Source of the DNA: Thermanaeromonas sp. C210
GTDB lineage: Bacteria; Bacillota; DSM-521; Neomoorellales; Neomoorellaceae
Direction: 5' to 3'
Assembly: GCF_013167955.1 (NCBI RefSeq)
Contig: NZ_BLWF01000002.1
Span: forward strand, 1 to 64,000
DNA: 64,000 bases
Both the position numbers and the translations under genes were made by a program. Each line of letters starts with the position of its first letter. The stretch's first letter is position 1. This document shows positions 2,901 to 58,445 of the stretch, one piece after another. The notes below the pieces were generated by a model. That model saw nothing but the letters and a program-made list of their open reading frames with translations, was not told the origin of the DNA and did no database searches.

Positions 2901-2951
2901 AGAAAGGAGGGGGCCGCCACCCGAGGCCGGGGACCGGTTTCCCAGCCCTTG

Positions 2952-7084: not shown

Positions 7085-7116
7085 GGCTTCACCACCCTTA
7101 ACAGCCGCCAGCGACC

Positions 7117-7142
7117 GTTGTATACATTATTACGTATACAAC
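7117..7142. promoter_or_regulatory. 9-bp inverted repeat, candidate operator of the ccpN operon
   Basis: GTTGTATAC, 8 nt, then GTATACAAC form a perfect dyad 33 nt upstream of the ccpN start, with AT-rich, -10-like TATAC sequence inside both arms. A TTGCAG 18-19 nt further upstream could be the -35. Autoregulation by the CcpN-like repressor is an inference from position. Confidence 0.55.
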
Positions 7143-7180
7143 ATTACCAGCCTTTTTCCTGCTGCTGCAAAAATTTTTTC

Positions 7181-9271: not shown

Positions 9272-9275
9272 CCTG

Positions 9276-10229
9276 TTACCCCCCCTTAACGTCAAAACTG
9301 TCCTTTGTATCCTCGGCGGCAGCCCAACCTGGGGCGCCCTCCGGAATCCCCCCTTGGGGGAAGGCCTTGAGGAGGGGATAACCGAGCCTCTCCCGCTGCT
9401 CCAAGTAAGCCGTAGCGCAGAGTCGGGCCAGGTGGCGTACCCTGGCTATGTACGCCGTTCTTTCGGTTACACTGATGGCCCCGCGCGCATCCAGCAGATT
9501 AAAGGTGTGGGAACACTTCAGGACGTAATCATAGGCCGGCTGCACCAACCCCTGTTCGATAATGCGCTTGGCTTCGGCCTCGTAAACGTTAAAGAGGGAG
9601 AAGAGCATGCCGGTGTCCGCAGCAGTAAAATTGTAATGGGAATAATCTACCTCTGCCTGGTGGTGGATGTGGCCGTAGGTCACCCCATCTACCCACTCTA
9701 TATCATAAACGCTGTCCACCTGCTGGATGTACATGGCCAGCCGTTCGAGACCGTAGGTAATCTCCGCGCTCACCGGCCGCAGATCATAGCCGCCGCACTG
9801 CTGGAAGTAAGTGAACTGGGTTATCTCCATTCCGTCCAGCCACACCTCCCAGCCCAAACCCCAGGCTCCCAGGGTGGGGGATTCCCAGTTGTCTTCTACA
9901 AACCGAATATCATGCTCCAGGGGATTAATGCCGAGGTGTTCCAGGCTCCGAAGGTAGATATCCTGCACTTCGGGAGGTGAGGGCTTTAAAATAACTTGGA
10001 ACTGGTAATAATGCTGCAGGCGGTTGGGGTTTTGGCCGTAGCGGCCATCGGTAGGACGACGAGAGGGCTCCACGTAGGCCACTCGCCATGGTTCAGGGCC
10101 CAGGACCCTAAGGAAAGTCGCCGGGTGCATGGTCCCCGCACCCTTTTCCAGGTCGTAAGGCTGTTGGATAACACAACCATAATCCGCCCAGAAATTCTGA
10201 AGGGCAAGGATGAGCTGTTGAAAATTCAC
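9276..10229 (-). CDS. glyQ: Glycyl-tRNA synthetase alpha subunit
   Basis: The catalytic alpha subunit. The protein opens [19 protein letters not shown] and contains [44 protein letters not shown] and the [15 protein letters not shown] block of the class II core. The start is uncertain by four codons: GTG at 10229 follows GGGGGAG by 11 nt, while GTG at 10241 abuts that site. It heads the glyQS operon, which has its own promoter and a short terminator-bearing leader. Confidence 0.95.
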
Positions 10230-10319
10230 GTGAACAGGCACTCCCCCACGTATCTAGGTTATGCAGGACCTCTTTGCGCACAAGTCTTTTGGTGGCCTGC
10301 TATCTTGATCTTGCTACAC

Positions 10320-10346
10320 AAAAAACCCGCCCCACCACGGGACGGG
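10320..10346 (-). terminator. Intrinsic terminator in the glyQS leader
   Basis: On the minus strand CCCGTCCC, a short loop and GGGGCGGG (one G-U pair) are followed by six T residues. It sits about 20-45 nt after the predicted transcription start and about 90 nt before glyQ, the position of an attenuator rather than of an upstream gene's terminator. Confidence 0.7.
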
Positions 10347-10368
10347 AGCTCAGTCCTCCTTGAAAAAT

Positions 10369-10397
10369 AATTTACCAGAGGAGGGGGGGCTTGTCAA
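10369..10397 (-). promoter_or_regulatory. Sigma-A-type promoter of glyQS
   Basis: On the minus strand TTGACA (10397-10392), a 17-nt spacer and TAAATT (10374-10369) make a near-consensus promoter reading toward glyQ. Confidence 0.75.
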
Positions 10398-10648
10398 CTC
10401 GCATCCCCAGAGCTTAGGCCGGGCGTCATTGAGCTCCCGCTCCCTCCATGAGCCCCGCTGACCAGACCAGCGCTCACCTTGCCTACCCGGCCGGGTTTCC
10501 GGTTCATGGGGCTTCCGTGCCTGACAGCCGCAGCCTCTCTAAGGCTCCGGCGCCGCCTCCGTACTCCCCTTCGCCAGGCCCCTGCCCTTCCCCTTGCCTC
10601 CACTCCCTCGTCGGTGAGCTAAGTGACGCTTTTAAAGGCGGCAAAGAC
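10398..10648. other. Gene-free GC-rich stretch
   Basis: Between the glyQS promoter and the DUF4342 gene I see no gene, T-box or tRNA. Pyrimidine-rich plus-strand runs are the only notable feature. Confidence 0.5.
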
Positions 10649-11095
10649 TCAGGCCCCGTTGCCTCCGTCTTTCTCCCGTAAGTCTAAGGAATGTTCTTCC
10701 ACCTGGCCGCCGGGACGTTCGATTTCCAGGGTGTAGCGATTGAAAAGGGCCGCCACACTGCTAATCCCGGCCAGGATGGCCAGCTCGGTGCTGGCCAGCA
10801 CCCCCAGGACGCCCAAAGCTCCGGCCGTAGCCGGTATTTCGGCCACAGTTTTCCCGTCTTTTTTGATCTTGATTTTGGTCACCTTGCCCTTGTGGAGGAT
10901 CTCCTTAATGCGGGTCAGAAGTCTTTCCCCCCACGTCTCTAAGGCGTGGACCGTTTCCTCCTTTTTACCTTCCTCCAGCCGGATAAGGGCTTCAATAACG
11001 TCCCCCCCGGCTTCGTCCAGGGCTTGTTTGGCTTCCCGGGAAGACAGCCCTACCCGCTTGCGCAGGATGTCAATTTTTTCGAGTTCCGTACTCAT
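10649..11095 (-). CDS. DUF4342 protein with UBA-like N terminus
   Basis: A 148-residue protein. Residues 1-45 (ELEKIDILRKRVGLSSREAKQALDEAGGDVIEALIRLEE) look like the UBA-type three-helix domain seen in EF-Ts and NAC. A Lys-rich basic patch (KGKVTKIKIKKDG) is followed by a hydrophobic Gly/Ala-rich segment (PATAGALGVLGVLASTELAILAGISSVAALF, about 90-120), then an acidic tail. This is the DUF4342 layout; function unknown. The ATG at 11095 follows GGGAGG by 6 nt. It overlaps the 3' end of recO by 26 nt. Confidence 0.75.
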   Translation of the reverse strand: MSTELEKIDILRKRVGLSSREAKQALDEAGGDVIEALIRLEEGKKEETVHALETWGERLLTRIKEILHKGKVTKIKIKKDGKTVAEIPATAGALGVLGVLASTELAILAGISSVAALFNRYTLEIERPGGQVEEHSLDLREKDGGNGA

Positions 11096-11846
11096 ATGCA
11101 TCCTCCCTAATTTGCTCCATTAAAATACGGGATTTGAGCCTTCTGTCTAAATAGTATTCCAAATAAGCAGGCAGAATTTCCGCCAGCTCCCTCTGACACC
11201 GGGGAGACAATTTCAGGCGGCTGAGGTGGGAGCCGCCCATGGACGCCAGATTACGCCAAACGGCCAGGGCCTCCCGGGATACGCGATACTGCGCCCCATA
11301 CTGCCGGCTGCAGCGGCTGCAAAGGGCGCCCCCGGCCGCAGGGGCAAAGGGTATAAGCCCCTCTTCCAGGGGGGCCCCGCAAGCGGCGCAGAGATTGACC
11401 CGCGGGGCAAATCCCAGCACGCTTATGGCGCGAGCTTCAAAGGCCCGGGCTACCAAGTGAGGATTTTCCCGGACCAAAAGGCCAAGACTCCGGCGCAACA
11501 AGCCGAACATCTCCGGACTGGCCTGACCGGCCGGCACTGAAACGTCTGCTATCTCGGCTAAGTAGCAGGCGGTCAACAACCTTTCGAGGTCTGCCCTTAA
11601 GGGAGCAAAGAAGTCTTCTACCTGGCATTGGGTTACCGTAGCCATGCTCCGGCCGTCATAAAGCAGGAAACGAGCCAGGCAGAGTCGCTGGGTGCCGCTC
11701 CTCAGGTTGCTGTGGGCCTTGCGCACCCCCTTGGCAATGGCGGTAATTTTTCCCCGGTTGGGGGTTAAAATATGCAAAATGCGATCTGCTTCCCGGAAAT
11801 CCTGGGTGGAAAGCACAATACCCTGTACTTGATAAAGGCCTGCCAC
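11070..11846 (-). CDS. recO: DNA repair protein RecO
   Basis: A 258-residue RecO, which loads RecA at gaps together with RecR. The OB-fold N terminus (YQVQGIVLSTQDFREADRILHILTPNRGKITAIAKGVRK) is typical, and the zinc finger is complete: CAAC in LCAACGAPLEEG and CSRC in ALCSRCSRQYG. It sits in the conserved era-yqzL-recO order. Confidence 0.95.
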   Translation of the reverse strand: MAGLYQVQGIVLSTQDFREADRILHILTPNRGKITAIAKGVRKAHSNLRSGTQRLCLARFLLYDGRSMATVTQCQVEDFFAPLRADLERLLTACYLAEIADVSVPAGQASPEMFGLLRRSLGLLVRENPHLVARAFEARAISVLGFAPRVNLCAACGAPLEEGLIPFAPAAGGALCSRCSRQYGAQYRVSREALAVWRNLASMGGSHLSRLKLSPRCQRELAEILPAYLEYYLDRRLKSRILMEQIREDAYEYGTRKN

Positions 11847-11883
11847 TGCCTTTTAACCTGCCCGTTATATTTTCTTCAGTACT

Positions 11884-12057
11884 TTAGCCCGTTATTTCGC
11901 CTATTACCGAATTTTGCGCTCCCCCATCCCCTGGGTGGGCCTCATTATCCTGTAGCCCTGCCTCCAACTCATATCTTTCCTGTTGTTTATAGAGCAAATA
12001 AATGTGGACGTGTCCCGTAGCCGCAAAAAGCTGCCAAAGAGCTTCGCTGGGTTTCAC
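11884..12057 (-). CDS. yqzL: YqzL-like small protein
   Basis: A 57-residue frame starting at GTG 12057 with GGAGGGG 5 nt or so upstream. Residues 5-24 read EALWQLFAATGHVHIYLLYK, which fits the YqzL pattern W-x-x-F-x-x-T-G-x-I-x-x-Y-L-L-Y-K. YqzL is a short protein of unknown function encoded between era and recO in many Firmicutes, exactly the position here. The C-terminal 30 residues (Gly, Asn, Glu rich) are longer than I expect for the family. Evidence is motif plus synteny. Confidence 0.75.
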   Translation of the reverse strand: MKPSEALWQLFAATGHVHIYLLYKQQERYELEAGLQDNEAHPGDGGAQNSVIGEITG

Positions 12058-12121
12058 ACGTCTTCCCCTCCTGAAAGGGACCTGCCTAACCTATATCCTT
12101 GCCCAAATCGAACAGCCTATA

Positions 12122-13033
12122 CTAGTCCCCTTTTGCCAGCACGTAGCCCAGCTGCTTTAAGGCCGTTTCCTGCTTTCGCCAGTTCTTTTTGACCTTTACC
12201 CGCAGATCCAGGTACATTTTATTGCCCAAAAGACCTTCCAGTTCCCGGCGGGCGAGGGTTCCGATTTCCTTCAGCATGCGACCTCCTTTCCCGATAAGGA
12301 TGCCCTTCTGGGAATCCCTTTCCACATAAACGGTGGCTGCCACGTATAACATATTATTGGGGCGGGGCGCTACCTCCTCTACCACCACGGCTACCGCGTG
12401 GGGTACCTCTTCCTCGGTTAAAAGCAGGATCTTTTCCCGGATGAGCTCCGCTATGAGCAGATTCTCCGGCTGGTCCGTCACCTGATCGGGCGGGTAATAC
12501 TGGGGTCCCGGCGGCAGGTGCCGGATTATCAGGGGGGGCAGCAGGTCCACGTTGAGGCCCTGCAGGGCGGAAACAGCCACCGCCTCAGCCGGTTGAAAGC
12601 GAGAATAAAAAAACCCTTTTGTCTTATCCAGTTGCCGGCCATTAATTAAATCTATTTTGTTAAAGACCAGGACCACCGGGGTGGCTATTTCCTTAAGAAA
12701 ACCCAGGATATATTCTTCCCCTGCGCCGGGTTCCACCGAAACATCTACTACGTAAACAACCACGTCCACTTCTTTGAGAGTCTGGCGGGCTAAGGAAACC
12801 ATATATTCGCCCAGGCGATGGTGGGGTTTATGTATTCCCGGCGTATCCAAAAACACGATCTGGGCGTCTTGAGCGGTATAAACTCCCAGAATCCTATTGC
12901 GGGTGGTCTGGGGTTTATCCGAGATGATGGCCACTTTCTGGCCTACCAGTGCGTTAAGCAAGGTAGATTTGCCCGCGTTGGGCCGCCCGATAAGGCCGGC
13001 GAAACCCGAACGGTGATCCTTGACTTCCGCCAT
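12122..13033 (-). CDS. era: GTPase Era
   Basis: A 303-residue Era. The G domain has the G1 loop GRPNAGKSTLLN, G3 DTPGIHKPH and G4 NKID. The KH domain near the C terminus has GKGGRMLKEIGTLARRELEGLLG. It binds the 3' end of 16S rRNA during 30S maturation. The start GTG/ATG at 13033 lies 13 nt after the cdd stop, so era is cotranscribed with cdd. Confidence 0.97.
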   Translation of the reverse strand: MAEVKDHRSGFAGLIGRPNAGKSTLLNALVGQKVAIISDKPQTTRNRILGVYTAQDAQIVFLDTPGIHKPHHRLGEYMVSLARQTLKEVDVVVYVVDVSVEPGAGEEYILGFLKEIATPVVLVFNKIDLINGRQLDKTKGFFYSRFQPAEAVAVSALQGLNVDLLPPLIIRHLPPGPQYYPPDQVTDQPENLLIAELIREKILLLTEEEVPHAVAVVVEEVAPRPNNMLYVAATVYVERDSQKGILIGKGGRMLKEIGTLARRELEGLLGNKMYLDLRVKVKKNWRKQETALKQLGYVLAKGD

Positions 13034-13046
13034 ACGTTACTACTCC

Positions 13047-13439
13047 TTAAAGGACGAAGGCCTTCGGCAAAAGATCCTTTAGCCGTTCCTTAAGCATCCT
13101 TCCCTCGGGCAGGCCGGTTATAATCTCCAGGTCAGGGGCAAATTCCGCCAGCACCTGGAGGCAGGCACCGCAGGGAAAGGTAAAGGGCCTGTCGCCCCCT
13201 ACTACCGCCAGGGCGACAAATTCGCGTTCCCCCTCGGAAACCGCCTTCCAGAGGGCTACCCTTTCGGCACAAACCGTAAGGCCATAGGAAGCATTCTCGA
13301 TGTTAACGCCTGTATAAACCCTGCCCGAGGACGTCAATAAAGCGGCTCCCACCGGAAAACGAGAGTAAGGTGCGTAGGCCCTTTCCCTGGCTCCTGCGGC
13401 AGCTCTTATCAGTGCCTCTCCGTCATAGGTCTTATCCAT
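13047..13439 (-). CDS. cdd: Cytidine deaminase
   Basis: A 130-residue homotetrameric-type cytidine deaminase for pyrimidine salvage. The catalytic NIENASYGLTVCAERVAL (zinc Cys and catalytic Glu) and PCGACLQVLAEF (two zinc Cys) are intact, as is the substrate-binding PYSRFPVGAAL. A TATAAT box lies just 10-15 nt before the start on the minus strand, so the leader may be very short. Confidence 0.95.
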   Translation of the reverse strand: MDKTYDGEALIRAAAGARERAYAPYSRFPVGAALLTSSGRVYTGVNIENASYGLTVCAERVALWKAVSEGEREFVALAVVGGDRPFTFPCGACLQVLAEFAPDLEIITGLPEGRMLKERLKDLLPKAFVL

Positions 13440-13505
13440 AAATCTATTATACCTCTTTCGGGGGAAATTTTAATAATTATAAGAGCAGGAATCCGGCGAG
13501 AAGCG

Positions 13506-13526
13506 TATAATTTGTATATACAAATT
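13506..13526. promoter_or_regulatory. -10 box overlapped by an 18-bp perfect palindrome
   Basis: TATAAT at 13506-13511 reads toward the Nudix gene, and AATTTGTATATACAAATT (13509-13526) is a perfect palindrome covering its 3' half and the expected start site. It looks like a repressor site in the cdd/Nudix divergent promoter region; no regulator is identified. Confidence 0.5.
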
Positions 13527-13550
13527 GCCGTGGAATCGGGAGTCTGGAAA

Positions 13551-14036
13551 GTGTTACGCACTTATCCCCTTACACCTCTGGTGGGCGTAGGAGCCATCGT
13601 TGTACACGGTGAAGCCCTGCTCCTGGTAAAGCGAGGAAGGCCGCCGGCCAAGGGCGCCTGGAGCATACCCGGAGGCAAGGTGGAAACCGGGGAAACCTTA
13701 ACCCAGGCCCTCCGGAGGGAAGTTGAAGAAGAATGCGGCCTCACCATAAGAATAGGGCCCCCCGTAGCAGTCCTAGACAGCATTTATACCGATGACCAGG
13801 GCCGGGTCAAATACCACTATGTTCTGGTGGATTTCTGGGCCGAATACGTCTCAGGTGAACTCTCCCCCGCGTCAGATGTGATGGAAGCCCGCTGGGTCCC
13901 CCTAAAGGAAGTGGGTAACCATGAACTCACCGTCGGCACCCTGGAACTGCTGAGGGAACTCGGCCTCTTCGCCGACCCGCCCCACCTCAGGCCTTCCGGG
14001 CTGCTTTACCGGACCCTCCGGGGGAGAACTCCCTGA
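13551..14036 (+). CDS. Nudix hydrolase
   Basis: A Nudix-fold protein of about 161 residues. The Nudix box is complete (GGKVETGETLTQALRREVEEECGL, matching G-x5-E-x7-REUxEE). The opening YPLTPLVGVGAIVVHGEALLLVKRGRPPAKGAWSIPGG resembles ADP-ribose pyrophosphatase and MutT-like house-cleaning enzymes. I placed the start at GTG 13551, 8 nt after GGGAG. A longer in-frame TTG start at 13512 would lie inside the palindromic promoter. The substrate cannot be told from sequence. About 170 nt after it (14037-14206) hold no gene. Confidence 0.85.
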   Translation: MLRTYPLTPLVGVGAIVVHGEALLLVKRGRPPAKGAWSIPGGKVETGETLTQALRREVEEECGLTIRIGPPVAVLDSIYTDDQGRVKYHYVLVDFWAEYVSGELSPASDVMEARWVPLKEVGNHELTVGTLELLRELGLFADPPHLRPSGLLYRTLRGRTP

Positions 14037-14206
14037 GAAGCCCCTTGGTCCTTTGTGCCCGCCGGGGCTTGCCGGACCGAGGTAATCCTCCGGCGGAAAA
14101 CGGCGATCCGCAACTAGCTGGCCCCCAACGGGGCGCCTCAGAGAGAGCAACCGCCCAGGAGAAGTGAGGCTTTAAAGCATTTCTCATCCAGTATGTCCTT
14201 TAGACT

Positions 14207-14545
14207 TTAAAGGAGTTTAGGTAAAAAAATCAGCATCCCCACTATGACCGCCCCCAGGGCCGTCACCAGGACGGCTCCGGCGGCCACATCCTTGGCCACC
14301 CGGGCCAGGGGGTGATACTGGGGACTGTACAGATTAACCGCCGCCTCCAGGGCCGTGTTGAACATTTCGGCCGCCAGTACCAGGGTAATGGTTAAAACGA
14401 GGGCCACCCATTCCCAATCCCTTACCTTAAGGTAATACGCCAGCGCCAAAGCCCCGGCAGCCGCGCTCAAATGAATGGCCATATTCGACTGGGTTCGTAG
14501 GGCAAAGAGGAGTCCCGTAAAGGCGGCGCGGAATTTCTTACCCAC
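14207..14545 (-). CDS. dgkA: Diacylglycerol/undecaprenol kinase
   Basis: A 112-residue membrane protein with three helices (about 30-47, 50-68, 88-108). The family motif [36 protein letters not shown] carries the catalytic and metal-binding Glu. Gram-positive DgkA phosphorylates undecaprenol for cell-wall lipid recycling. It overlaps ybeY by 8 nt within the pgpH-ybeY-dgkA run. Confidence 0.95.
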
Positions 14546-33656: not shown

Positions 33657-34415
33657 CTACCTTTTTAGCTTTAACCTGGTAATGGCCGTGGCCAGGGCGG
33701 CGGCACCAAAGCCGTTGTCGATATTGACCACGCCCACGCCGGTGGCACAACTGTTTAACATGGCCAGGAGGGCCGCCAGGCCGCGGAAGCTGGCCCCGTA
33801 TCCCACACTGGTGGGCACAGCAATGACGGGCTGGGCTATCATGCCGGCCACTACACTGGCCAGGGCCCCCTCCATTCCGGCCACCACGATCACAACATCG
33901 GCCCGCTCCACCCTACCCATCTGGTCGAGGAGGCGGTGAATACCGGCTACCCCCACATCGTATATGCGGTCCACCTCGTTGCCCATGACCTCCGCTGTAA
34001 CCGCCGCCTCCTCGGCTACCGGTAAATCGGCCGTTCCGGCGCTCAAGACGGCTACGCGCCCGCCCGTGGGAGGTATTTCCCCTGCCGGGACCACGATGGT
34101 ACGGGCCAGGGCATTGAACCGAGCCTCGGGCAGTTTGTCGGCCACCGCCTCATAGGTCTCTTCCTCCGTCCGGGTTACCAGCACCGTAGCACCGGCACCG
34201 GCCAGGCGGCAGGCAATGGCTACAATTTGCTCCCGGGTCTTACCCTGGCCGAAGATAACTTCCGGAAAGCCGTTGCGCAGGGCCCGGTGGTGATCGACCT
34301 TGGCAAAACCGAGGTCCTCGTAAGGCAGGCCTTTGATCTTCTCCACGGCTTCCTCGAGACTCACCCGGCCTTCCTGCAATCCCTCAAGAAGTTCCCTTAA
34401 TTGGCCTTCCGTCAT
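33657..34415 (-). CDS. larB: LarB: P2CMN synthase for the nickel-pincer cofactor
   Basis: A 252-residue AIR-carboxylase-like protein. The C-terminal domain shows the PurE-like blocks AVLSAGTADLPVAEEAA, YDVGVAGIHRLL, VVAGMEGALASVVAGMIAQPVIAVPTSVGYGAS and NIDNGFGAAALA. LarB carboxylates and hydrolyses nicotinate adenine dinucleotide to make pyridinium-3,5-biscarboxylate mononucleotide, the first step to the nickel-pincer nucleotide of lactate racemase. larC and larE are not in the window, so they must lie elsewhere if the cofactor is made. Confidence 0.92.
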   Translation of the reverse strand: MTEGQLRELLEGLQEGRVSLEEAVEKIKGLPYEDLGFAKVDHHRALRNGFPEVIFGQGKTREQIVAIACRLAGAGATVLVTRTEEETYEAVADKLPEARFNALARTIVVPAGEIPPTGGRVAVLSAGTADLPVAEEAAVTAEVMGNEVDRIYDVGVAGIHRLLDQMGRVERADVVIVVAGMEGALASVVAGMIAQPVIAVPTSVGYGASFRGLAALLAMLNSCATGVGVVNIDNGFGAAALATAITRLKLKR

Positions 34416-39349: not shown

Positions 39350-40147
39350 TTAGGGGCTGAGGGGCGTACGGATAAACTGCTCTGCCCGATACCCCAGGCC
39401 GGCGGAAATCTCCGCCGCCGTCCGCGTTACCAGTTCTATGGCTAATTTAAGCCTTTCTCCTTCGAGCCGGGCAACCGGTCCCGAAATACTGATGGCAGCG
39501 CAAGCCTTTCCACTGTGGTCGTGAATGGGGGCGGCCACACAGCGCAGACTATCCATAATTTCCTCATTATCTATCGCATACCCCTGGGCGCGCACCCTGG
39601 CCAGCTCGGCCTCCAAAGCTCTGGGATCGGTAATGGTGTTCTTGGTAAAGCGGGGCAACCCCTTAGTAGCAATAATACGCCTCACTTCGCTTGGCGGTAG
39701 GGCGGCTAGAAGCACTTTGCCCACGCCGGTACAGTGGGCCGGCAACCGCATGCCCACCTGGGATACGATTCGCAAAGACTGGTGGCTTTCCCGCTTATCG
39801 ATATACAGAACCTCGCCTTTGTCCAGGACCACCAGATGGACGGTCTCCCCTAACTCATCTACCAACTTTTGGATATAGGGGGCTGCAACGGTTCGCACAT
39901 CCCAGCCGTGGGCCACAATATTCCCCAGTTCAAAGAGCCTTAAGCCCAGTTTGTATTTCCCAGTAAAGATCGATTGTTCCACGTAACCAAAATCCCGCAA
40001 AGTGGAAAGCAGTCCATGGACAGTACTCTTCGCCAGCCCTAGCTTACCGGCAATTTCGTGCAGAGCCAATTCCCCTCGCGCTTCGGCCAGGACATCAATG
40101 ATTTTCAGCGCCTTAGCTACCGACCTTATTTGGGAAGTATTCTCCAT
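39350..40147 (-). CDS. IclR family transcription regulator
   Basis: A 265-residue IclR protein with the N-terminal winged helix (IRSVAKALKIIDVLAEARGELALHEIAGKLGLAKSTVHGLLSTLRDFGYVEQ) and effector domain (VHLVVLDKGEVLYIDKRE, PAHCTGVGKVLLAALP, YAIDNEEIMDSLRCVAAPIHD). Family members often control aromatic and hydroxy-acid catabolic operons. The nearest candidate target is the 4-hydroxy-2-oxovalerate cluster at 50-58 kb, now separated from it by insertion sequences; that link is an inference. Confidence 0.92.
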   Translation of the reverse strand: MENTSQIRSVAKALKIIDVLAEARGELALHEIAGKLGLAKSTVHGLLSTLRDFGYVEQSIFTGKYKLGLRLFELGNIVAHGWDVRTVAAPYIQKLVDELGETVHLVVLDKGEVLYIDKRESHQSLRIVSQVGMRLPAHCTGVGKVLLAALPPSEVRRIIATKGLPRFTKNTITDPRALEAELARVRAQGYAIDNEEIMDSLRCVAAPIHDHSGKACAAISISGPVARLEGERLKLAIELVTRTAAEISAGLGYRAEQFIRTPLSP

Positions 40148-50023: not shown

Positions 50024-50518
50024 TTACCACTTGCCGATCATAATAAGGAAGGCCGGGAATAAGAGAGTAACTATCCCTTCTATTGCCAGTAGCCATCCGA
50101 TAAATCTTCCCCAGGCTAGTTTCAAAGCCATAGAAGCAAAAGCCGCTAAGAATAATACCGCCCAGGAGAAAGCGAAAAGACCAAATCGCAAATCACCGGC
50201 ATTGAAATAAAAGTAAGAGGTAAGCGCAACATAAAGTCCGGCCCCCAAGCAATAGTACCCAAGACCAGTCAGATCATAATCGCCAAATAGATCCCAAGCG
50301 AAAATTAAGTAAAACATCGAAAAGGCCATGGTAAGTCCTGCAACTATTAACGTTCCCTCGTCTTTCGCTGTACCAGACGACCATAGACCCAAAACCGCCA
50401 TTAGCGCCCCTACGATGGCATTGGCAGTAGCCGCCCCTTTGGAGTTAACTTTTCCTAGCATAAAGGCAGCATCTACTAGGAAAATAAAAGCGGCAATTAA
50501 CAGGATAATAGCAACCAT
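50024..50518 (-). CDS. AmiS/UreI-type amide or urea channel
   Basis: A 164-residue membrane protein with six predicted helices and no charged loops of note. The order of LGKVNSKGAATANAIVGALMAVLGL, then GTLIVAGLTMAFSMFYLIFAWDLFGDYDLTGLGYYCLGAGLYVALTSYFYF, then GRFIGWLLAIEGIVTLLFPAFLI, fits the AmiS/UreI family, which passes urea or short-chain amides. ATG 50518 follows AAAAGGAGG by 6 nt. Next to an amidohydrolase gene, it probably admits that enzyme's substrate. Family call is by pattern, not by search. Confidence 0.72.
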   Translation of the reverse strand: MVAIILLIAAFIFLVDAAFMLGKVNSKGAATANAIVGALMAVLGLWSSGTAKDEGTLIVAGLTMAFSMFYLIFAWDLFGDYDLTGLGYYCLGAGLYVALTSYFYFNAGDLRFGLFAFSWAVLFLAAFASMALKLAWGRFIGWLLAIEGIVTLLFPAFLIMIGKW

Positions 50519-50536
50519 AAAAATCCTCCTTTTCAT

Positions 50537-50767
50537 TTATTTAGAGGGTACAGACAAAGCTTTTTTGCCTGTACCCCCTTCGAAACTGTACTAAGAACCA
50601 GTGAGTCTCCCCCACGTTGGAGCGTCCAAAGGTAACTCTGGCACCAGCGGCCGTGTTTGGCCAACGTGACCATGTACAGTAAAGCCTAAACTGCGAATTT
50701 AAGCATTAAGAGGCATAATAGCTTCGCTCTTGCCGCGTTCAGGTTTAGAAGCTTTTGTTAAGCCAGA
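50537..50767. other. Gap between the channel and amidohydrolase genes
   Basis: No gene seen. GTACAG (about 50550) and CTGTAC (about 50572) form a small hairpin around AAGCTTTTTT, and CACGTTGG recurs inverted as CCAACGTG about 40 nt on. Either could be a weak terminator or RNA structure. Confidence 0.35.
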
Positions 50768-51547
50768 CTAACTCTGCTTCAATCTACTGACAGCTTGATG
50801 ATAAAGTGAATCTCCTTCGGTTAAGGCTTGAATAATTTGTTCTGCCGTCATCACTCTCGCAAAAGCTCTTCTTAAAGTTCTTAAGGTTGCCTCATGGGCT
50901 AAAGCGTTATCAGTAGCGTTGATATCACTACCAAAGACTACATGGTAACCGCGCGAGTATGCGTCCCTAGCAGTAGTTTCGCAACAAACGTTTGTCAGCG
51001 TACCGCACACGATCACTGTCTTTACGCCTAAGTGTCTAAGAACCATATCTAGTTCAGTACCAGCGAATGAGGAATACGAATGTTTTGAGCGTATTACTCT
51101 TTCACCCTCTTTTGGATATATTTCGTGGTAAATATCGGCGCCAGGGGTCCCTTCTTTAACAGCTCCAGCCTTGATAGGAGGCCAATATTCATACATGTCA
51201 TGAACACAATCAGGGGCAACGTTGATAGCCATGTATATTACCGGAACCCCCAATGTGCGACAAGTTTCAATAACTTTTTTAACGCGCGGTATTTGCCGAT
51301 AGGCTTCAGGAATGCATAAAGGGCTATTAGGATTTACAAAATCCTCCTGTAAATCTACAACAAGAAGAGCGCATTCCTCTTTCTTTATTTCAAACACCCA
51401 GTGCTTGTCTATAAGATATTCTTTTTCCGCGAACATAATAAATTCCTTTTCTCCAGCATATAGTCCTTCAGATTTGAATTCTTCTGGCTTAAGTAGTTCA
51501 TCCTCTTTCCGGCCATAGATTTCTAAATACCTTTTTACCAAGTCCAT
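50768..51547 (-). CDS. Isochorismatase-fold amidohydrolase
   Basis: A 259-residue cysteine hydrolase. An N-terminal extension of about 55 residues precedes the fold. The catalytic triad is visible: D65 in LLVVDLQEDF, K155 in RSKHSYSSF and C188 in TLTNVCCETTARDA. Relatives include nicotinamidase, N-carbamoylsarcosine amidase, maleamate and ureidoacrylate amidohydrolases, all of which hydrolyse an amide to acid plus ammonia. ATG 51547 has GAGGAGG 8 nt upstream. It may end the catabolic cluster or have its own promoter (-10 TATAAT at 51681-51676). Substrate not determinable. Confidence 0.82.
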   Translation of the reverse strand: MDLVKRYLEIYGRKEDELLKPEEFKSEGLYAGEKEFIMFAEKEYLIDKHWVFEIKKEECALLVVDLQEDFVNPNSPLCIPEAYRQIPRVKKVIETCRTLGVPVIYMAINVAPDCVHDMYEYWPPIKAGAVKEGTPGADIYHEIYPKEGERVIRSKHSYSSFAGTELDMVLRHLGVKTVIVCGTLTNVCCETTARDAYSRGYHVVFGSDINATDNALAHEATLRTLRRAFARVMTAEQIIQALTEGDSLYHQAVSRLKQS

Positions 51548-51938
51548 AACGAATACCTCCTCTGGTCTTTGATGTTTAGTGAAGTGCTTGGAAACCAATT
51601 TCTTAGCATTTTTGCATTGGAATGTATGATTTTCTTACATTACATTAAACCTGAACTCAGCAAGTAAATAGAGCCATTATACCTCTGAGAAATCTTGGGG
51701 GAGAATCGCGGTAAGACTGATGACGGGACAGTTCATCACCTCCTCCACTTCCTCAGTGCTAGGTTAGCTTGCTCACTGGACCTAATGGCAACTACTTATG
51801 CACGGCTCGCACCCCCCTTAGAGGTTCTCCCTTCAATAAGGAGCTACCCACCAATTCATATAGTCAGTGATTGTTTCAATAACTGGTTTACTTCCTTTCC
51901 CTTCTATTGCGTACTGTTAGTCTCACCTGGGGAAAGGC
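51548..51938 (-). promoter_or_regulatory. Leader region of the amidohydrolase gene
   Basis: No gene seen in 390 nt between the 481-residue protein and the amidohydrolase. A TATAAT (51681-51676) about 130 nt before the start reads toward the amidohydrolase; the -35 is poor. Confidence 0.4.
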
Positions 51939-53384
51939 TCAGAAAGGAGCTCTGGACCCTGTTTCTCTCTCGACACCCCTCTGCCGCAACCACTTCGGCA
52001 ACAACTCCCTCTCTACGCGTTCGCTAACCTCCGGCGCCTTCTTCAGCAGGAATTCGGCTAAAGGCTCACTTAAGTTTATCCCGCCTATAGCGCCATCAAA
52101 GATCAAAACCTTTCGGGTACCGGTCACTTTGTAAGCAAATTCCATGGCCGCCTCCGTAGTTTCTGCCACCACAGCATGCTTCATATAGTTGAGATTCTGC
52201 GGGTCACGGTTAAAAAGCTCCGCCTGCTCCTGCCCCACTACCACTGTAGGAATGTGCTCGCTAAAGAAGGCGCTGGGATATCCCGTCCAGGCGTAATTGT
52301 GCACGCACATCTTGATGGCCGGATTGAGAGGAGGGATCTCCTTGAGTAGCGGCCTGCCCTGCTTCCCGTAGAAAGCCTCAGTGTACCAGGTATATCCTGG
52401 CAGCGGATTCTCTAAGTCATAGAGGTCGGTATTGGCCCCAGCAAAGTTAGCATAAATTACACCAGCGGAAAATACGTATACCACCGGACAAGGAAAGTCG
52501 AGAGCAGCTATGCATTCGTCTATCTCACCGAATAGGGTCATCATCTTACCGTAATAGCGGCACCCCAAATAGGTTACCCGGTCGTTTAACGCATACAGGT
52601 CATTATCGGCATCCACTCCCATGATGCCATTAGGAGCCACTGTGAGGAAAGAGGCAAAGGCAAATTTGCTCTGGACAAAAGGAGAATCGAAGATAGCTCT
52701 GGCCGTAAAGTTAGCCGCCCGGGGACCCAGGTTCTGGTGGTAAGTGGAGCGGGTCTCGATACGGGCATAAGACATACCGAAAGGCTTTACCGCCCGGTCT
52801 ACCTGGCGGTGAAAATGAACTTCGCGTACATCGGAGTTATGGGCGTGGACAATCCAGTCGGCATCGTATACCTTCTTTATGCCGTATAAAGTGCCGATTT
52901 CCGTCTCTATAGGTATACCTTCATCAATAGGGGCCACTCCGATGGCCTTGCCCTTAAAGTGCTTATCCAGGCCGTAGCGCTTGATATATTCTTCTGTCTC
53001 GCGGAAACGCAAGCCCACGCCGGCCCGCAGGCGTATGTTTGTACAACCCGTGCGGGCCTGGATAACATCCTTCAAGGTCTTAAGCATCTCGGCATAGGGT
53101 TCGCCCCCCAGCAAAGTAAAACCGTGGTGGGAGGCCAGGATGTTTACCGAGTGCTCCGGCTTTATCATGCTCATATCGACCTTTTGGAGGGCTTCCTCGG
53201 TGGCTCTGCGTACTGCCGCGATTCCCTGGTCGCCCGGATAAATAACCTCAGGCAAGTCCGGGAATAGCTCCTTAAGAAGTACCGACGTCATATTCGGAAG
53301 CTCACATACTCTCTTCCGTACTAGCGAAGGATCAATACCGTACTGCGATTTGCGGGGAGGTATTGGGGGTATTGGTGGACGCAT
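51939..53384 (-). CDS. Unrecognised 481-residue His-rich protein
   Basis: I do not recognise this family. It is soluble, with no signal peptide, helices or P-loop. Clustered histidines stand out: H85-H86 in LASHHGFTLLGG, then DADWIVHAHNSDVREVHFHRQV (H180, H182, H190, H192) followed by K200, which looks like a metal or acid-base site. Further blocks are GIPIETEIGTLYGIKKVYDADWI, KMCVHNYAWTGYPSAFFSEHIPTVVVGQEQAELF and VLIFDGAIGGINLSEPLAEFLLKKAPE. The alternation of beta strands and helices recalls the two-domain DUF2088/LarA fold, but the LarA motifs are absent. The start follows GGAGG, and it overlaps the ferredoxin gene by one base, so both products probably work together in the 4-hydroxy-2-oxovalerate route. 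Confidence 0.85.
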   Translation of the reverse strand: MRPPIPPIPPRKSQYGIDPSLVRKRVCELPNMTSVLLKELFPDLPEVIYPGDQGIAAVRRATEEALQKVDMSMIKPEHSVNILASHHGFTLLGGEPYAEMLKTLKDVIQARTGCTNIRLRAGVGLRFRETEEYIKRYGLDKHFKGKAIGVAPIDEGIPIETEIGTLYGIKKVYDADWIVHAHNSDVREVHFHRQVDRAVKPFGMSYARIETRSTYHQNLGPRAANFTARAIFDSPFVQSKFAFASFLTVAPNGIMGVDADNDLYALNDRVTYLGCRYYGKMMTLFGEIDECIAALDFPCPVVYVFSAGVIYANFAGANTDLYDLENPLPGYTWYTEAFYGKQGRPLLKEIPPLNPAIKMCVHNYAWTGYPSAFFSEHIPTVVVGQEQAELFNRDPQNLNYMKHAVVAETTEAAMEFAYKVTGTRKVLIFDGAIGGINLSEPLAEFLLKKAPEVSERVERELLPKWLRQRGVERETGSRAPF

Positions 53385-54004
53385 TACGATTCCCTCCTAC
53401 CTTGTAGGGGTGCCGCAATTACCCGCTCGAAGAGCTTAATGTCCTCGTCAAAGTAGAAACCGCGCCCCGTATATTTCTTTTTCACTTCTTCCGGTATTTC
53501 CCACACGGTGGGAGTACGTCCATACCATTGCCAGCCACCTTTCGGCGGCGAAGGCTCTATGCCCGCGGCCTCCAAGAGGCGCAAGATAGGCTGGATGCAT
53601 TCCACCTTGCACCCGGTGCGGGCCCCGGTCTGGAAAGACACATCCTCGGGGGAACGCGCTCCCTGCAAAATAGCAGCCGCCACTTCCTCGGCCCTGGTAG
53701 CCGTGCAATAGCAAATGATTTGCTCGGGGTGAAGTTTGGCCTTGCGGCATAGTTCTTCTATCTTGGCGTAATCCACGCCGGCTACGTCCACCTGGACCAC
53801 AATAGGCTGTTCGCGCTTTGCCATGGTGATGGCGTACTCCGGGCACCGTTGCTCGCAAGCCGCACAACCCCGGCACCGGTCGGCATCCACCACCGCCTTA
53901 CGGTCCACTACCGAGATGGCCAGCACCGGGCAAACCCTCTCGCAGGTCTTACAGCCCCGGCACTTTTCCTGGTCGACAACCGCCAGTAAGTTAACGACCT
54001 TCAA
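53384..54004 (-). CDS. 2[4Fe-4S] ferredoxin fused to a BFD-like [2Fe-2S] domain
   Basis: A 206-residue iron-sulfur protein. Residues 15-25 and 44-54 hold two C-x2-C-x2-C-x3-C-P clusters. Residues 85-145 look like a bacterioferritin-associated-ferredoxin domain with C98-x-C100 and C132-x3-C136. A 60-residue tail (WEIPEEVKKKYTGRGFYFDEDIKLFERVI) has no match I know. It should carry electrons for a redox step of the pathway, most likely with the overlapping 481-residue protein. It is 2 nt from the aldolase gene. Confidence 0.85.
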   Translation of the reverse strand: MKVVNLLAVVDQEKCRGCKTCERVCPVLAISVVDRKAVVDADRCRGCAACEQRCPEYAITMAKREQPIVVQVDVAGVDYAKIEELCRKAKLHPEQIICYCTATRAEEVAAAILQGARSPEDVSFQTGARTGCKVECIQPILRLLEAAGIEPSPPKGGWQWYGRTPTVWEIPEEVKKKYTGRGFYFDEDIKLFERVIAAPLQGRRES

Positions 54005-54006
54005 TT

Positions 54007-55026
54007 TTAACCCCCTCCCCTCTGTTGTGCCAGCTGATAGGCCACATCAATGATCATATCCTCTTGCCCTCCGACCATCCTCCTCCTTCCTAGTTCCACC
54101 AAAATATCTCTGGGATCCAGGCCGAATTTTTCGGCCGCCCGGTAGGTGTGAAGTAAAAAACTGGAATAAACTCCGGCATAGCCTTGCATAAGGGGTGCAT
54201 TGCGCACTACCTGGGGCCGGTGCATGATGGGCTCTACAATATCTTCGGCCACATCCATTATTTTGTAGAAATCCACGCCGGTCCGGTAACCGGCTCGGTC
54301 CAACACCCCCACCAAAGCCTCTGTTTGAGCATTGCCCGCTCCGGCACCTAAGCCCCGGCAGGCGCCATCCAGGAAAGTGGTGCCGGCCTCCAGAGCCGCC
54401 AGGCAATTGGCCGTCGCCAGGGTCAAATTGTTATGGGCGTGGAAGCCTACCGGCACTTTGACCTTTTCCACTACCGCTTCCACCCGGGCCTTCACATCCT
54501 CGGGTAACATAGCTCCAGCGGAATCCGCTACATAAACGTAATCTGCACCATAGGATTCAAATAGCGCAGCCTGTTCCGCCACCTTCTCCGGAGGTGCCAT
54601 ATGGGACATCATGAGGAACCCAAAAGCTTCCAACCCCATCTTTTTAGCCAGACCAATGTGTTGTTCACCAATATCCGCTTCGGTGACATGGGTAGCCACC
54701 CTGACTGCCTTGGCGCCGCAATCGATGGCCAGTTTCAGGTCTTCCTGCGTGCCTATTCCCGGAAGCAGTAATACAGTCAGTTTCCCCTTACGAATAACTT
54801 CCGCCGCCGCTAGGAGCATTTCCTCGTCACTCAAAGCCGCCCATCCGTAGTTATGGGAGGAACCTGCCAGACCATCTCCGTGGGAAACCTCAATGTATTC
54901 GACTCCCGCCTCATCCAGCCCGCCCGCAATGGCCGTAATCTGTTCCCTGGTGAACTGGTGGGCCACGGCGTGGCTGCCGTCCCGCAAGGTGGTATCTACT
55001 ATATGCACAAATTTACCTTTGTTCAT
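54007..55026 (-). CDS. 4-hydroxy-2-oxovalerate aldolase
   Basis: A 339-residue DmpG/MhpE-type enzyme, cleaving 4-hydroxy-2-oxovalerate to pyruvate and acetaldehyde. The DRE-TIM barrel signature is [37 protein letters not shown] carries the metal-binding His pair, and [19 protein letters not shown] and the C-terminal communication domain ([17 protein letters not shown]) are present. DmpG and DmpF form a complex that channels acetaldehyde; the genes overlap by 4 nt here, as usual. Homocitrate or isopropylmalate synthases are excluded by these motifs. Confidence 0.95.
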
Positions 55027-55898
55027 GCTACCGCTTCCTTTCCCAGCATCCTCGCCGCCAGCCTTTCAGCCACGGCCACAGCCGCTGCGGTTATAATGTC
55101 CAAATTACCGGAATACTTGGGTAGGAAATCCCCCGCCCCTTCCACTTCGATAATAGTAGTCACTTTATTGCCGTCCAGGATAGGCGGCACCCGCAACCGG
55201 TAACCCGGTACGTAGCTCTGGACTTCCTTGACCATTTCAGCTACGGCCTCACGTATGGCCTTCTCGTCCGGATTTTCTACTTCCACATATATTGTGTTGG
55301 TCATGATTATGGGCGGCTCGGCCGGATTCAGGATAATAATGGCCTTACCCTTCTCGGCCCCTCCTACGGCACACAGGGCTTTCGCTGTGGTCTGGGTAAA
55401 TTCGTCGATATTCTGCCGCGTCCCCGGACCGGCGCTTTTGCTGGCAATGGCCGCCACTATCTCCGCATACCGGGCTCCGGCCGCCTGGTTTATGGCGTAA
55501 ACTATGGGCACGGTAGCCTGGCCCCCACAGGTCACCATGTTCAGGTTGGGAGCCTCATACAAATCTTTCAGATTGACCGGTGGTACCACATAGGGCCCTA
55601 TGGCCGCCGGTGTAAGGTCGATGGCGATCTTGCCCGCAGCCTCCAGCTGGGGGGCATGCTGGAGGTGATGTTTGGCCCCGGTGGCGTCAAAAACGATTTT
55701 TATGTTGGGGTCCTCCAGTACGGGTCCTATGCCTTGGGTTGTGGTGCGGATGCCCAGGGAGCGGGCCCTTTTGATGCCCTCGGATTCCACAATTCCCGCC
55801 ATCATTTCCATCTGAAGGTAGCGGCTGCGTAAGATTTTATACATCAAATCGGAACCGATATTACCCGGGCCGATCACGGCGACTTTAATTTTATCCAC
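55023..55898 (-). CDS. Acetaldehyde dehydrogenase (acylating)
   Basis: A 291-residue DmpF/MhpF-type enzyme that turns acetaldehyde, NAD+ and CoA into acetyl-CoA. The Rossmann start [18 protein letters not shown] and the catalytic Cys in [17 protein letters not shown] are intact. Partner of the aldolase. In an acetogen-like cell its acetyl-CoA would join the central pool directly. Confidence 0.95.
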
Positions 55899-55956: not shown

Positions 55957-56730
55957 TTAAACGAACCGCAGATTAATGGTGCCCAGGCTGTGGAAAGATA
56001 CAGTAAAAACATCCCCTGTCACCGCCTCTACAGCCGCGGTGATAGCCCCGGAAAGTATGATCTCGCCCGCCTCCAGAGCAATGTCAAAAGCAGCCAGCTT
56101 GTTGGCCAGCCAGGCCACGGCTGCCGCCGGGTGGCCCCACACCGCCGCACCGGCTCCCGTATTGACCACCTCGCCGTTTTTCTCCACTACCATACCTAGC
56201 AGGCGAAGGTCCAGGTCTTTAATAGGTACCATCCTGCTGCCCAAGACAAAGCGGGCGCTGGAGGCATTGTCGGCTATGGTATCCGCCAGCTTTATTTTCC
56301 AGTCCCGTATGCGGCTGTCCACTATTTCTATGGCCGGCATAATGCCTTCCGTGGCCCGGAAAACGTCGGCGATGGTCACCCCCGGACCTTTTAAAGTGTC
56401 CCTCAGAATAAAGGCCAGCTCGCCTTCCACGCGCGGCCAGAGTAACTCCTCTCTCCGGCAGGGTTCACCTTCCAGGAGCAACATGTGGTCCAGCAAGTGG
56501 CCATAATCCGGCTCCTTTACTCCCAGAAGGTCTTGCATGGCTTTACTGGTAAGGCCAATCTTTTTGCCTATTATCCGCCGTCGCTGTTTCAGTTTCATCT
56601 CCACTCCGGCCAGCTGGATCCGGTAGGCATCCTCTACGGTTAAGTCAGGATAAGTAGAGGTAAGAGGTTCAATGGCCTTCCGGGTTGCCTCTGCCTCCAA
56701 AAGTTTAGCGGCTATGGCCTGGAAATTCAT
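55957..56730 (-). CDS. 2-oxopent-4-enoate hydratase
   Basis: A 257-residue FAH-fold hydratase that adds water to 2-hydroxypenta-2,4-dienoate to give 4-hydroxy-2-oxovalerate. Metal-binding Glu residues lie in RVEGELAFILRDTLKGPGV and ATEGIMPAIEIVDSRIRDWKIKLADTIADNASSARFVLG, and GHPAAAVAWLANKLAAFD follows. ATG 56730 (MNFQAIAAKL) has AAAAGGAGGT 9 nt before it. 4-oxalocrotonate decarboxylase is a sister family with similar motifs and cannot be fully excluded, but the DSRIRDWKIKLADTIADNAS block fits hydratases well. Confidence 0.88.
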   Translation of the reverse strand: MNFQAIAAKLLEAEATRKAIEPLTSTYPDLTVEDAYRIQLAGVEMKLKQRRRIIGKKIGLTSKAMQDLLGVKEPDYGHLLDHMLLLEGEPCRREELLWPRVEGELAFILRDTLKGPGVTIADVFRATEGIMPAIEIVDSRIRDWKIKLADTIADNASSARFVLGSRMVPIKDLDLRLLGMVVEKNGEVVNTGAGAAVWGHPAAAVAWLANKLAAFDIALEAGEIILSGAITAAVEAVTGDVFTVSFHSLGTINLRFV

Positions 56731-57628
56731 GGTGTTCGCTACCTCCTTTTCCCATACGTTCTTGCCAGTGCTGGCGCAAGACTCCCGCGATTCTCTCGGC
56801 CAAACCGGCATCATCTAGTCCAAAGGCCAGGCCCTCCAGCAAGGCCTGGCAGGCCAGCCGCACTTCCTCATGGGGTCCCGGCAGGGCTACCAGCCGCGCC
56901 ACACCCACCCGGCCCACGGCTATGCGTACCCCTTCTTTGTGGTGGCGGTTATTATCGGGGGTAAATTTTAATATCCAGGGAGTGTGGGCCTGGGGATCCA
57001 GCCGCAAGATAGCCTCTATGTTGCAGTCCTTATCCTCCGCCCCCACACCGCCAGTAGTTACAATAAGGCCATACCCCCGCTCCAGGGCTCCCTCCAGCCG
57101 ATTGGCTACCGCTATTACATCGTCCTCTAAAATCCCTCCAAATTCGGCTTGAAAGCCAGCCCCGGTCAGAGCCTCTATGAGATAGGGCGAATTGGTATCG
57201 CGAATTTTCCCTGCCAGCACTTCACTGCCTGAAGCGAAGATCAGGGCTCTGCGCGCTACAGCTTGGCTAATTTCCGAGGCCAGCCGGGCTGAAGCTGAAA
57301 GTATCTCCCGGGCCTCACCCGGTTCCAGGGCGATCAGCCCCAATACTCCTTCTGAGTGAACTCCGGCCTCGGGTCCCAGGATTACACCCGGAACCTCCTT
57401 AAGCCGCTTCAAAATCTCCTTTTCCTTACCGGCTACAGCCTCCGCCTGTACCCGGCGCCGCAAGATATCAAAGGCTACCAGGCCCGGCCGCACGTCCACT
57501 ACCATAACTTCGTGAACCTTAAGATGTAGGGCCTCAGCGGCGGCAGCCGCCACCTGCCCCAGGTCGGCTCCGCGAAGGTCTACATCTTGAACCCAAAAGG
57601 TAGTTTTCTCTAGCAAATCCCATTCCAT
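56705..57628 (-). CDS. MoCF (molybdopterin-binding) domain protein
   Basis: A 307-residue protein. The N-terminal 160 residues are not familiar to me. The C-terminal part is a MoaB/MogA/CinA-type fold: LIFASGSEVLAGKIRDTNSPYLIEALTGAGF, LIVTTGGVGAEDKDCNIEAIL and LVALPGPHEEVRLACQALLEG. MoCF domains bind molybdopterin or adenylated intermediates, but CinA-like relatives act on pyridine nucleotides. The start at 57628 has GGGGAGAA upstream. It lies between the NadC-like gene and the hydratase, overlapping the latter by 26 nt. Confidence 0.75.
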   Translation of the reverse strand: MEWDLLEKTTFWVQDVDLRGADLGQVAAAAAEALHLKVHEVMVVDVRPGLVAFDILRRRVQAEAVAGKEKEILKRLKEVPGVILGPEAGVHSEGVLGLIALEPGEAREILSASARLASEISQAVARRALIFASGSEVLAGKIRDTNSPYLIEALTGAGFQAEFGGILEDDVIAVANRLEGALERGYGLIVTTGGVGAEDKDCNIEAILRLDPQAHTPWILKFTPDNNRHHKEGVRIAVGRVGVARLVALPGPHEEVRLACQALLEGLAFGLDDAGLAERIAGVLRQHWQERMGKGGSEHHEFPGHSR

Positions 57629-57650
57629 CTTTTTCTCCCCAATGATTTGA

Positions 57651-58445
57651 TCATCTTCGAACATCCAAACTAAAGTCTAACAACGGAGCATCGATAATGG
57701 CCCGGCCGACATCTACAATGTCGGCCCCGGCAGCAATTACTCTGTCAAGATCCCCCTTTTTTACGCCCCCACCAAAAGCTAGCTTAACTTGGTCCCGGAA
57801 ATTCTCCTCCAGGGCCGCTTCCCTTACCAGCACCAGGTCCTCTAACTTACCGGTATCCACCATGAGGATACGTGCTCCCTCTCTCGCAGCTTCTCCGGCT
57901 TCCTCTGCCAAGGGAGCGCTTTCACCCCGCAGTTGAACTACCACTACTCTCCCCTCTAGCGCCCGGGCCCTGCGTACCGCCGGACCTATACCCCCGAACA
58001 TGCGGACATAATTTTTATCGAGGTAGACAAAGGGCTCCTCTGTAATCCGGATTCCTGCTCCGCCGGTAGCTACGGCCCGGCGTAAATCCTGCCTTACCTC
58101 AGGTGGCACTTTCTTCCAGGCACCACAGACAATGCTCACCCTGCCCTGGGCACGACTCACCATCTGCGCCGCTGCTGTAGCTACACCCGACGCTTTGCCA
58201 ATCCAGCCAAGGAGTTGCTCTTCCGCCCGAGCTATCTGCCAGGCATCACCCCAGGCTCGGCAGATGCAGGTCCCTCTCTCAAGCTGCATACCCTCCGAAG
58301 CTATCCATTCGAGTTTCAGTCCCAGCTCCCGAGCTCCTGCCTGCAGCTTATCTGTACCGGCTAAAATGCCCTCCTGTCTAGCTGTAATTTCTAGAAGAAA
58401 CAAATCCCCCCCTAGGGGTGTAAATAGAAAATCCCTCACATCCAA
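57651..58445 (-). CDS. NadC/ModD-like phosphoribosyltransferase homologue
   Basis: A 264-residue relative of quinolinate phosphoribosyltransferase. The split N-terminal half and barrel are recognisable: ASGVATAAAQMVSRAQG, then VCGAWKKVPPEVRQDLRRAVATGGAGIRITEEPFVYLDKNYVRMFGG in place of the family's ARKTTPGxR and KDNH blocks, ILMVDTGKLED, and FGGGVKKGDLDRVIAAGADIVDVGRAI. Several active-site basic residues differ from NadC, so it probably takes another substrate, as ModD proteins do. TTG start at 58445 with GAGGA upstream. First gene of the catabolic operon. Confidence 0.75.
   Translation of the reverse strand: MDVRDFLFTPLGGDLFLLEITARQEGILAGTDKLQAGARELGLKLEWIASEGMQLERGTCICRAWGDAWQIARAEEQLLGWIGKASGVATAAAQMVSRAQGRVSIVCGAWKKVPPEVRQDLRRAVATGGAGIRITEEPFVYLDKNYVRMFGGIGPAVRRARALEGRVVVVQLRGESAPLAEEAGEAAREGARILMVDTGKLEDLVLVREAALEENFRDQVKLAFGGGVKKGDLDRVIAAGADIVDVGRAIIDAPLLDFSLDVRR

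Follow-up and report, generated by a model that had tools for sequence, protein, structure and literature searches.

Within the 64,000-nucleotide stretch of the Thermanaeromonas sp. C210 genome analyzed here (hereafter, the window), positions 51,939 to 53,384 carry an open reading frame (ORF) of 481 codons on the minus strand, and the plus strand of that region is interrupted by stop codons. The 481-residue protein that the original prediction had placed here, which we call X and which we predict to be a LarA-fold enzyme (see below), is therefore confirmed as an ORF and assigned to the minus strand. The ORF is not a chance one, since X is present in 15 of 41 relatives at 82-94% identity and is also encoded by at least 84 contigs in the species-genome collection. 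Its carriers include Moorella, Sporomusa, sulfate reducers, Archaeoglobus, and a Borrarchaeota lineage, as well as the gut bacteria Oscillibacter and Flavonifractor. A search for distant relatives in one archaeal phylum returned only the two known Archaeoglobus copies. Phage or plasmid origin of the gene was considered and rejected, as was a possible selenocysteine at an in-frame TGA in two relatives, which is a normal stop. Our alignment comprises 66 homologs with 64-94% identity to the window protein. Scans of X and of each of these homologs individually against Pfam, NCBIfam, and PDB sequences were empty, and neither Lar_N (PF09861) nor any other curated LarA model matched them; at the sequence level, the earlier statement that X belongs to no family was right.

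Directly upstream of X on the minus strand, positions 53,384 to 54,004 encode a ferredoxin with two [4Fe-4S] sites and a BFD-like [2Fe-2S] domain (Pfam Fer4 and Fer2_BFD), whose stop codon overlaps the start codon of X by one base (TAATG). This ferredoxin is found in all 36 X loci that have long flanks on both sides (hereafter, well-flanked loci) and directly precedes X in 60 of 71 parsed loci, and we infer that it is the electron donor of X. The same strand carries genes for a 4-hydroxy-2-oxovalerate aldolase of the DmpG type (54,007 to 55,026; TIGR03217, 534 bits against a cut-off of 286), an acylating acetaldehyde dehydrogenase of the DmpF type (55,023 to 55,898; TIGR03215, 452 bits against a cut-off of 282), and a 2-oxopent-4-enoate (2-hydroxypentadienoate) hydratase-like protein (55,957 to 56,730). 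For the last of these, the best NCBIfam model was DmpE at 321 bits, below the equivalog cut-off of 409, and the ORF opens at 56,814 with a likely start near 56,730. The strict linkage originally claimed for both the ferredoxin and the aldolase genes holds for the former; the aldolase is common (30 of the 36 well-flanked loci) but not strictly linked, and at a few X loci (L082, L089, and L096) the downstream pathway is not nearby.

The two remaining genes of the operon, also on the minus strand, are dedicated to X and encode a MoCF/COG1058-like protein (56,705 to 57,664, with a likely start near 57,628; Pfam MoCF_biosynth) and a quinolinate phosphoribosyltransferase (QRPTase)-like protein (57,651 to 58,445; Pfam QRPTase). 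In relatives, the operon begins with the gene for an IclR regulator, which in most of them stands directly before the QRPTase-like gene. In the window, the IclR gene (39,350 to 40,147, minus strand) is split off by transposase ORFs between 40.6 and 49.9 kb, which by eye are IS66-, IS21-, and IS110-like. X is followed closely on its own strand (50,024 to 51,598) by genes for an isochorismatase-type hydrolase and an AmiS/UreI transporter, neither of which was recognized among the recurrent neighbors of X at other loci. In addition, an M24 creatinase/prolidase-like hydrolase with no assigned place in the pathway (e.g., L036, positions 12,825 to 13,934) occurs in 18 of the 36 well-flanked loci.

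Fold and active site of X

An AlphaFold2 model of X computed from the 66-member alignment reached a mean pLDDT of 85.8 and a pTM of 0.89 (a model from nine close homologs, with a pLDDT of 42, was discarded). When this model was compared with the PDB by Foldseek, six entries fell below an E value of 0.001, and all of them belong to the LarA family, i.e., 9q3j (two chains), 9q3k, 2yjg, 6d6z, and 7s91, with E values of 4e-8 to 1.3e-6; the next match was an unrelated methyltransferase (E = 0.005). The match is remote, with TM-scores of only 0.40-0.47 and an rmsd of 8-11 Å. The angle between the LarA domains varies among structures (PMC12611868), which may lie behind the low TM-scores. Local alignment of X with LarA by hhalign was not significant (P = 0.044), and no significant score was obtained against a second LarA-like group either, owing to the narrowness of the X profile (Neff of 1.85); the relation to LarA therefore rests on structure and on the MAFFT alignments described below. 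Given the model, we are confident that X adopts a LarA fold. The original prediction had noticed a LarA-type layout and had proposed a comparison of a predicted structure with LarA structures; once made, that comparison bore out the hint, only LarA-family entries lying below the E value of 0.001. The second, divergent LarA-like group, found in this genome and in relatives (L004, positions 706 to 2,019), matches Lar_N weakly, displays an H-x12-K-x15-H pattern, and is related to 4nar, a "putative uronate isomerase."

LarA, a lactate racemase, uses an unusual nickel-pyridinium cofactor, the nickel-pincer nucleotide (NPN). K184 and H200 anchor this cofactor, and H108 and H174 form the acid/base pair (PMC7583248, PMC12611868). 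In the alignment of the 66 homologs, nine residues (H86, H87, R126, H180, H182, H190, H192, K200, and H216) are invariant. X was also aligned with MAFFT, in six runs, together with two LarA-like sets from relatives. K200 (codon at 52,785 to 52,787; this and the following codons are on the minus strand) fell on K184, the NPN thioamide lysine, and H216 (52,737 to 52,739) on H200, a nickel ligand, both in six of six runs and with a lysine-to-histidine spacing of 16 as in LarA. H190 (52,815 to 52,817) fell on the second acid/base histidine, H174, in four of six runs, with a spacing of 10 to K200, again as in LarA; when the protein sequence was shuffled, 1.2% of the copies showed the combined H-x9-K-x15-H spacing. 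In place of the catalytic H108, X has R126 (53,007 to 53,009), as aligned in all six MAFFT runs and in the weak local hhalign alignment. LarA D72 and R75, which are NPN or catalytic residues with ribose, phosphate, and carboxylate contacts, are also replaced, and H86 and H87 (53,124 to 53,129) lie near them, with H86 on a LarA aspartate (D71 in L121 numbering) in five of six runs. The invariant H180 and H182 (52,839 to 52,847) have no LarA counterpart. A cysteine metal site was dropped from consideration, as no cysteine is invariant among the 66 members.

Since K200, H216, and H190 align with their LarA equivalents and R126 stands for H108, X retains the residues for cofactor attachment together with one of the two acid/base residues. 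We infer, in the absence of binding data, that K200 and H216 would be the residues by which X binds NPN or a closely related derivative. The histidines and K200 that the original prediction singled out proved to be invariant, although the pair it numbered H85/H86 is off by one and is really H86/H87 (H180/H182, H190/H192, and K200 are as stated). Its reading of these residues as a metal or catalytic set survives as far as their invariance goes; the metal reading is better recast as an NPN active site, with K200 on the NPN lysine and H190 on H174. Similarly, LarA motifs were said to be missing, which is true of H108 and D72/R75 but not of the cofactor-holding lysine/histidine pair.

An ordinary LarA-type racemase or epimerase feeding the aldolase pathway would account for the fold and the cofactor residues, and there is a LarA subfamily that has only one catalytic histidine, although it is inactive on lactate (PMC12611868). 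We nevertheless consider this reading very improbable, given that the catalytic pair H108 and H174 is incomplete, with arginine for H108 in 66 of 66 homologs, and that ferredoxin, which a racemase does not need, accompanies X at every well-flanked locus. Judged by the invariant arginine, X is not a normal racemase. The members of that subfamily, LarA-Bw and LarA-Sp, are the best structural matches to X and likewise miss one of the two catalytic histidines; however, they lose H174 (to asparagine) and keep H108, whereas X loses H108 and keeps H174 (PMC12611868). LarA-Sp does not racemize lactate, and for both proteins the authors favor carbohydrate metabolism, not furans (PMC12611868). Compared with LarA and its homologs (PDB 2yjg, 6d6z, 9q3j, and 9q3k), X is alike in its Foldseek fold, in the spacing between NPN lysine and nickel histidine, and in one catalytic histidine, and differs in lacking a sequence-family match, in the replacements of H108 and D72/R75, in the extra invariant H180, H182, and H192, and in having a ferredoxin partner and dedicated QRPTase-like and MoCF-like genes.

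Cofactor-related genes around X

A larB gene, whose product acts in NPN synthesis, lies in the window at positions 33,657 to 34,415 of the minus strand (NF033503, 296 bits against a cut-off of 175). Its presence had been noted in the original prediction; it and X are unlinked here, yet larB, larC, and larE are linked to X in many relatives, a feature that X shares with LarA. At least one of the three adjoins X in 16 of the 36 well-flanked loci, and larA in only 2 (the larB, larC, and larE labels were confirmed on representatives with the NCBIfam LarB, LarC, and LarE models). LarC was found in 51 of 55 X-containing genomes, larB and larE not being counted genome by genome; one of the four genomes without detected LarC is a complete chromosome (G322). 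In a 300-genome phylum sample, LarC occurred in 19 of 20 genomes with X and in 147 of 280 without it (Fisher P = 1e-4, uncorrected for relatedness). Five X-containing genomes (G009, G106, G324, G335, and G338) keep LarC without a Lar_N match at E ≤ 0.001, so they have no recognizable LarA, and in two of them larB and larC lie near X (L061 of G324 and L088 of G338), joined by larE in L061. Collectively, the use of NPN or a derivative by X is likely, but the evidence for it is indirect. A Moorella-group relative (G008, contig C2, positions 801,958 to 803,302) retains 64 N-terminal residues of a second X copy (70% identity) as a remnant adjoining larC, which suggests an ancestral X-larC neighborhood.

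The QRPTase-like and MoCF-like genes track X even more closely. In the 300-genome sample, both were present in all 20 genomes with X, as opposed to 2 (QRPTase-like; Fisher P = 3e-29) and 1 (MoCF-like; P = 3e-30) of the 280 without X, and both stay with X at loci without an aldolase pathway in the vicinity, i.e., in Alicyclobacillus (L082) and Borrarchaeota (L089 and L096). The reaction of QRPTase couples phosphoribose with a pyridine acid. NPN, for its part, is a pyridinium mononucleotide whose precursor is nicotinic acid adenine dinucleotide (PMC12611868). In one genome without X (G110; L184, positions 8,596 to 11,418), a QRPTase homolog of the X-operon type adjoins larB and larE, with neither X nor the MoCF-like gene. 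On the basis of this chemistry, the nature of NPN, and the G110 arrangement, we infer that the two proteins probably make, modify, or load a pyridinium cofactor of X. Within the X-operon QRPTase-like proteins, K111, K112, and R133 are invariant and the residues around the quinolinate site are unlike those of true QAPRTase, so their substrate is not fixed by homology.

A LarA-fold X might instead work with a non-NPN cofactor built by these two proteins. The near-perfect tracking of X by both genes is compatible with such a cofactor, as is the lack of detectable LarC in some X-containing genomes, but we consider it unlikely, as larB, larC, or larE lies in or adjoins many X operons, the lysine and histidine spacing matches that of LarA, and the QRPTase homolog of G110 adjoins larB and larE. 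NPN or a derivative thus remains our preferred cofactor. Two further arrangements were observed. In the X-negative genome G069, a short contig carries a QRPTase-like gene and a broken MoCF-like gene next to a UbiX-like gene (L183, positions 2,108 to 4,118); X is either lost from this genome or located on another contig. In Alicyclobacillus suci (L082, positions 6,917 to 14,424), the gene order is larE-larB-larC-ferredoxin-X-QRPTase-MoCF plus a second larC-like gene, with an aldehyde dehydrogenase, an iron-type alcohol dehydrogenase (Fe-ADH), and an AMP ligase upstream and no hydratase or aldolase nearby.

Putative reaction of X

The hydratase, aldolase, and dehydrogenase are predicted to turn 2-hydroxypenta-2,4-dienoate (C5H6O3) into pyruvate and acetyl-CoA, and upstream of this compound the core operon holds no enzyme except X and its ferredoxin. 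The addition of two electrons and two protons to 2-furoate (C5H4O3), with cleavage of the C5-O bond, yields precisely 2-hydroxypenta-2,4-dienoate. We therefore propose that X opens the ring of 2-furoate reductively, using NPN and electrons from ferredoxin; there is no biochemistry behind either the reaction or the substrate, both of which are inferred, and we give the proposal about an even chance. Of its parts, a net reduction with ferredoxin, also an inference, is reasonably probable, and 2-furoate as the substrate is evenly balanced. Ferredoxin fits furan reduction because dearomatizing a furan needs low-potential electrons, which a racemase would not. More specifically, NPN on X would be reduced with two electrons by the co-translated ferredoxin, and arginine and histidine residues near the pincer would hold the carboxylate of 2-furoate. 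Hydride would then pass from reduced NPN to furan C5, and the resulting carbanion would expel the ring oxygen, with H190 as acid/base, to give the dienolate, i.e., 2-hydroxypenta-2,4-dienoate. From there, sequence evidence points to a Dmp-type lower route through hydratase, aldolase, and acylating dehydrogenase to pyruvate and acetyl-CoA.

This proposal can be set against two known pathways. The DmpE/DmpG/DmpF lower meta-cleavage pathway employs the same lower-pathway enzymes as the X operon, but its 2-hydroxypentadienoate comes from O2-dependent catechol cleavage, whereas we infer an O2-free reduction for the X operon. In the HmfABCDE plus HmfF/G pathway of Cupriavidus, an HmfF-type UbiD supplies 2-furoate, as we envisage at some X loci; furoate is there converted to a CoA ester and hydroxylated by a molybdenum enzyme, and the core of the X operon contains neither CoA activation nor a molybdenum enzyme. 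We know of no enzyme for the O2-free reductive opening of the 2-furoate ring. In the literature within our reach, which excluded most subscription journals, we found no anaerobic furoate ring-opening enzyme for comparison and no LarA tied to ferredoxin or furans.

The NPN-enzyme reactions in the LarA literature cited here are racemizations and epimerizations, with no net redox change, and it has been suggested that LarA homologs without the catalytic residues might catalyze another hydride-mediated reaction (PMC7583248). If our proposal is true, X would be the case foreseen there, in the form of a ferredoxin-coupled NPN reductase. The ring-opening step that is missing from anaerobic furan degradation would be filled by X as well. 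Among the main inhibitors in biomass hydrolysates are furans, and FDCA serves as a monomer for plastics. New chemistry for X is well motivated, albeit without activity data; that X represents a new class of NPN enzyme, in which ferredoxin drives net reduction, hydride opens an aromatic furan ring, and a modified pincer nucleotide is made with the aid of the QRPTase-like and MoCF-like proteins, two cofactor genes without an earlier assignment, we put forward only tentatively. The X gene occurs in cultured strains, so its function is testable there.

Furan-related genes beside X

The furan idea predicted furan genes beside X, and we examined the neighbors of X for them. In L020, the UbiD directly downstream of X scored 642 bits against PtHmfF (6h6v/6h6x) and 222 bits against the next enzyme, and three more X-linked UbiDs scored 515-665 bits against PtHmfF and about 190-230 against the next. 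PtHmfF is an FDCA decarboxylase that gives 2-furoate (PMC8988006, PMC6644310). A control UbiD from a genome without X also had PtHmfF as its best match, at 397 bits, so the top match alone is weak evidence, and the arguments for the furan link are instead the bit scores, the identities, and the physical linkage to X. UbiDs with at least 56% identity to the L020 copy were found in 5 of 20 genomes with X and 3 of 280 without it in the 300-genome sample (Fisher P = 4e-5), and all five copies in the former lie on the same contig as X, within 17 kb. Such linkage is confined to a minority of loci: an HmfF-like UbiD with at least 50% identity to the L020 copy occurs at 11 of 80 X loci, and the window contains no HmfF-like gene. 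The family adjoining X at most loci is BenE (PF03594), an aromatic acid transporter encoded downstream of X, and some loci have an aldehyde ferredoxin oxidoreductase, an Fe-ADH, or TRAP transporters nearby.

These neighbors bear on two further readings. X could perform the same reductive opening on another five-membered heteroaromatic acid, e.g., pyrrole-2-carboxylate, which would give 2-aminopentadienoate and then, after loss of ammonia, 2-oxopent-4-enoate. This route ends in the same hydratase and aldolase products, and BenE and UbiD neighbors suit any heteroaromatic acid; however, the UbiD linked to X closely resembles the furan enzyme PtHmfF and is far from PA0254 (only 111 bits), and the nearby alcohol and aldehyde oxidoreductases suit furfuryl alcohol and furfural, which leaves the pyrrole-type substrate improbable in our estimation. 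Slightly more doubtful still is an NPN-dependent oxidoreductase that would use ferredoxin as its redox partner and act on a 2-hydroxy or 2-oxo acid that is not aromatic. It would retain the ordinary LarA half-reaction and explain both the ferredoxin and the lost second histidine, but the operon offers no source of hydroxy acid, and the BenE, UbiD, and aldehyde ferredoxin oxidoreductase neighbors suggest aromatic acids. Among these readings, the opening of 2-furoate remains the one we prefer. In genome G195, a cluster of about 25 kb contains genes for IclR, M24, ferredoxin, X, the QRPTase-like protein, hydratase, acetaldehyde dehydrogenase, and aldolase, and it also holds those for Fe-ADH, aldehyde ferredoxin oxidoreductase, the MoCF-like protein, UbiD, LarB, and LarC.
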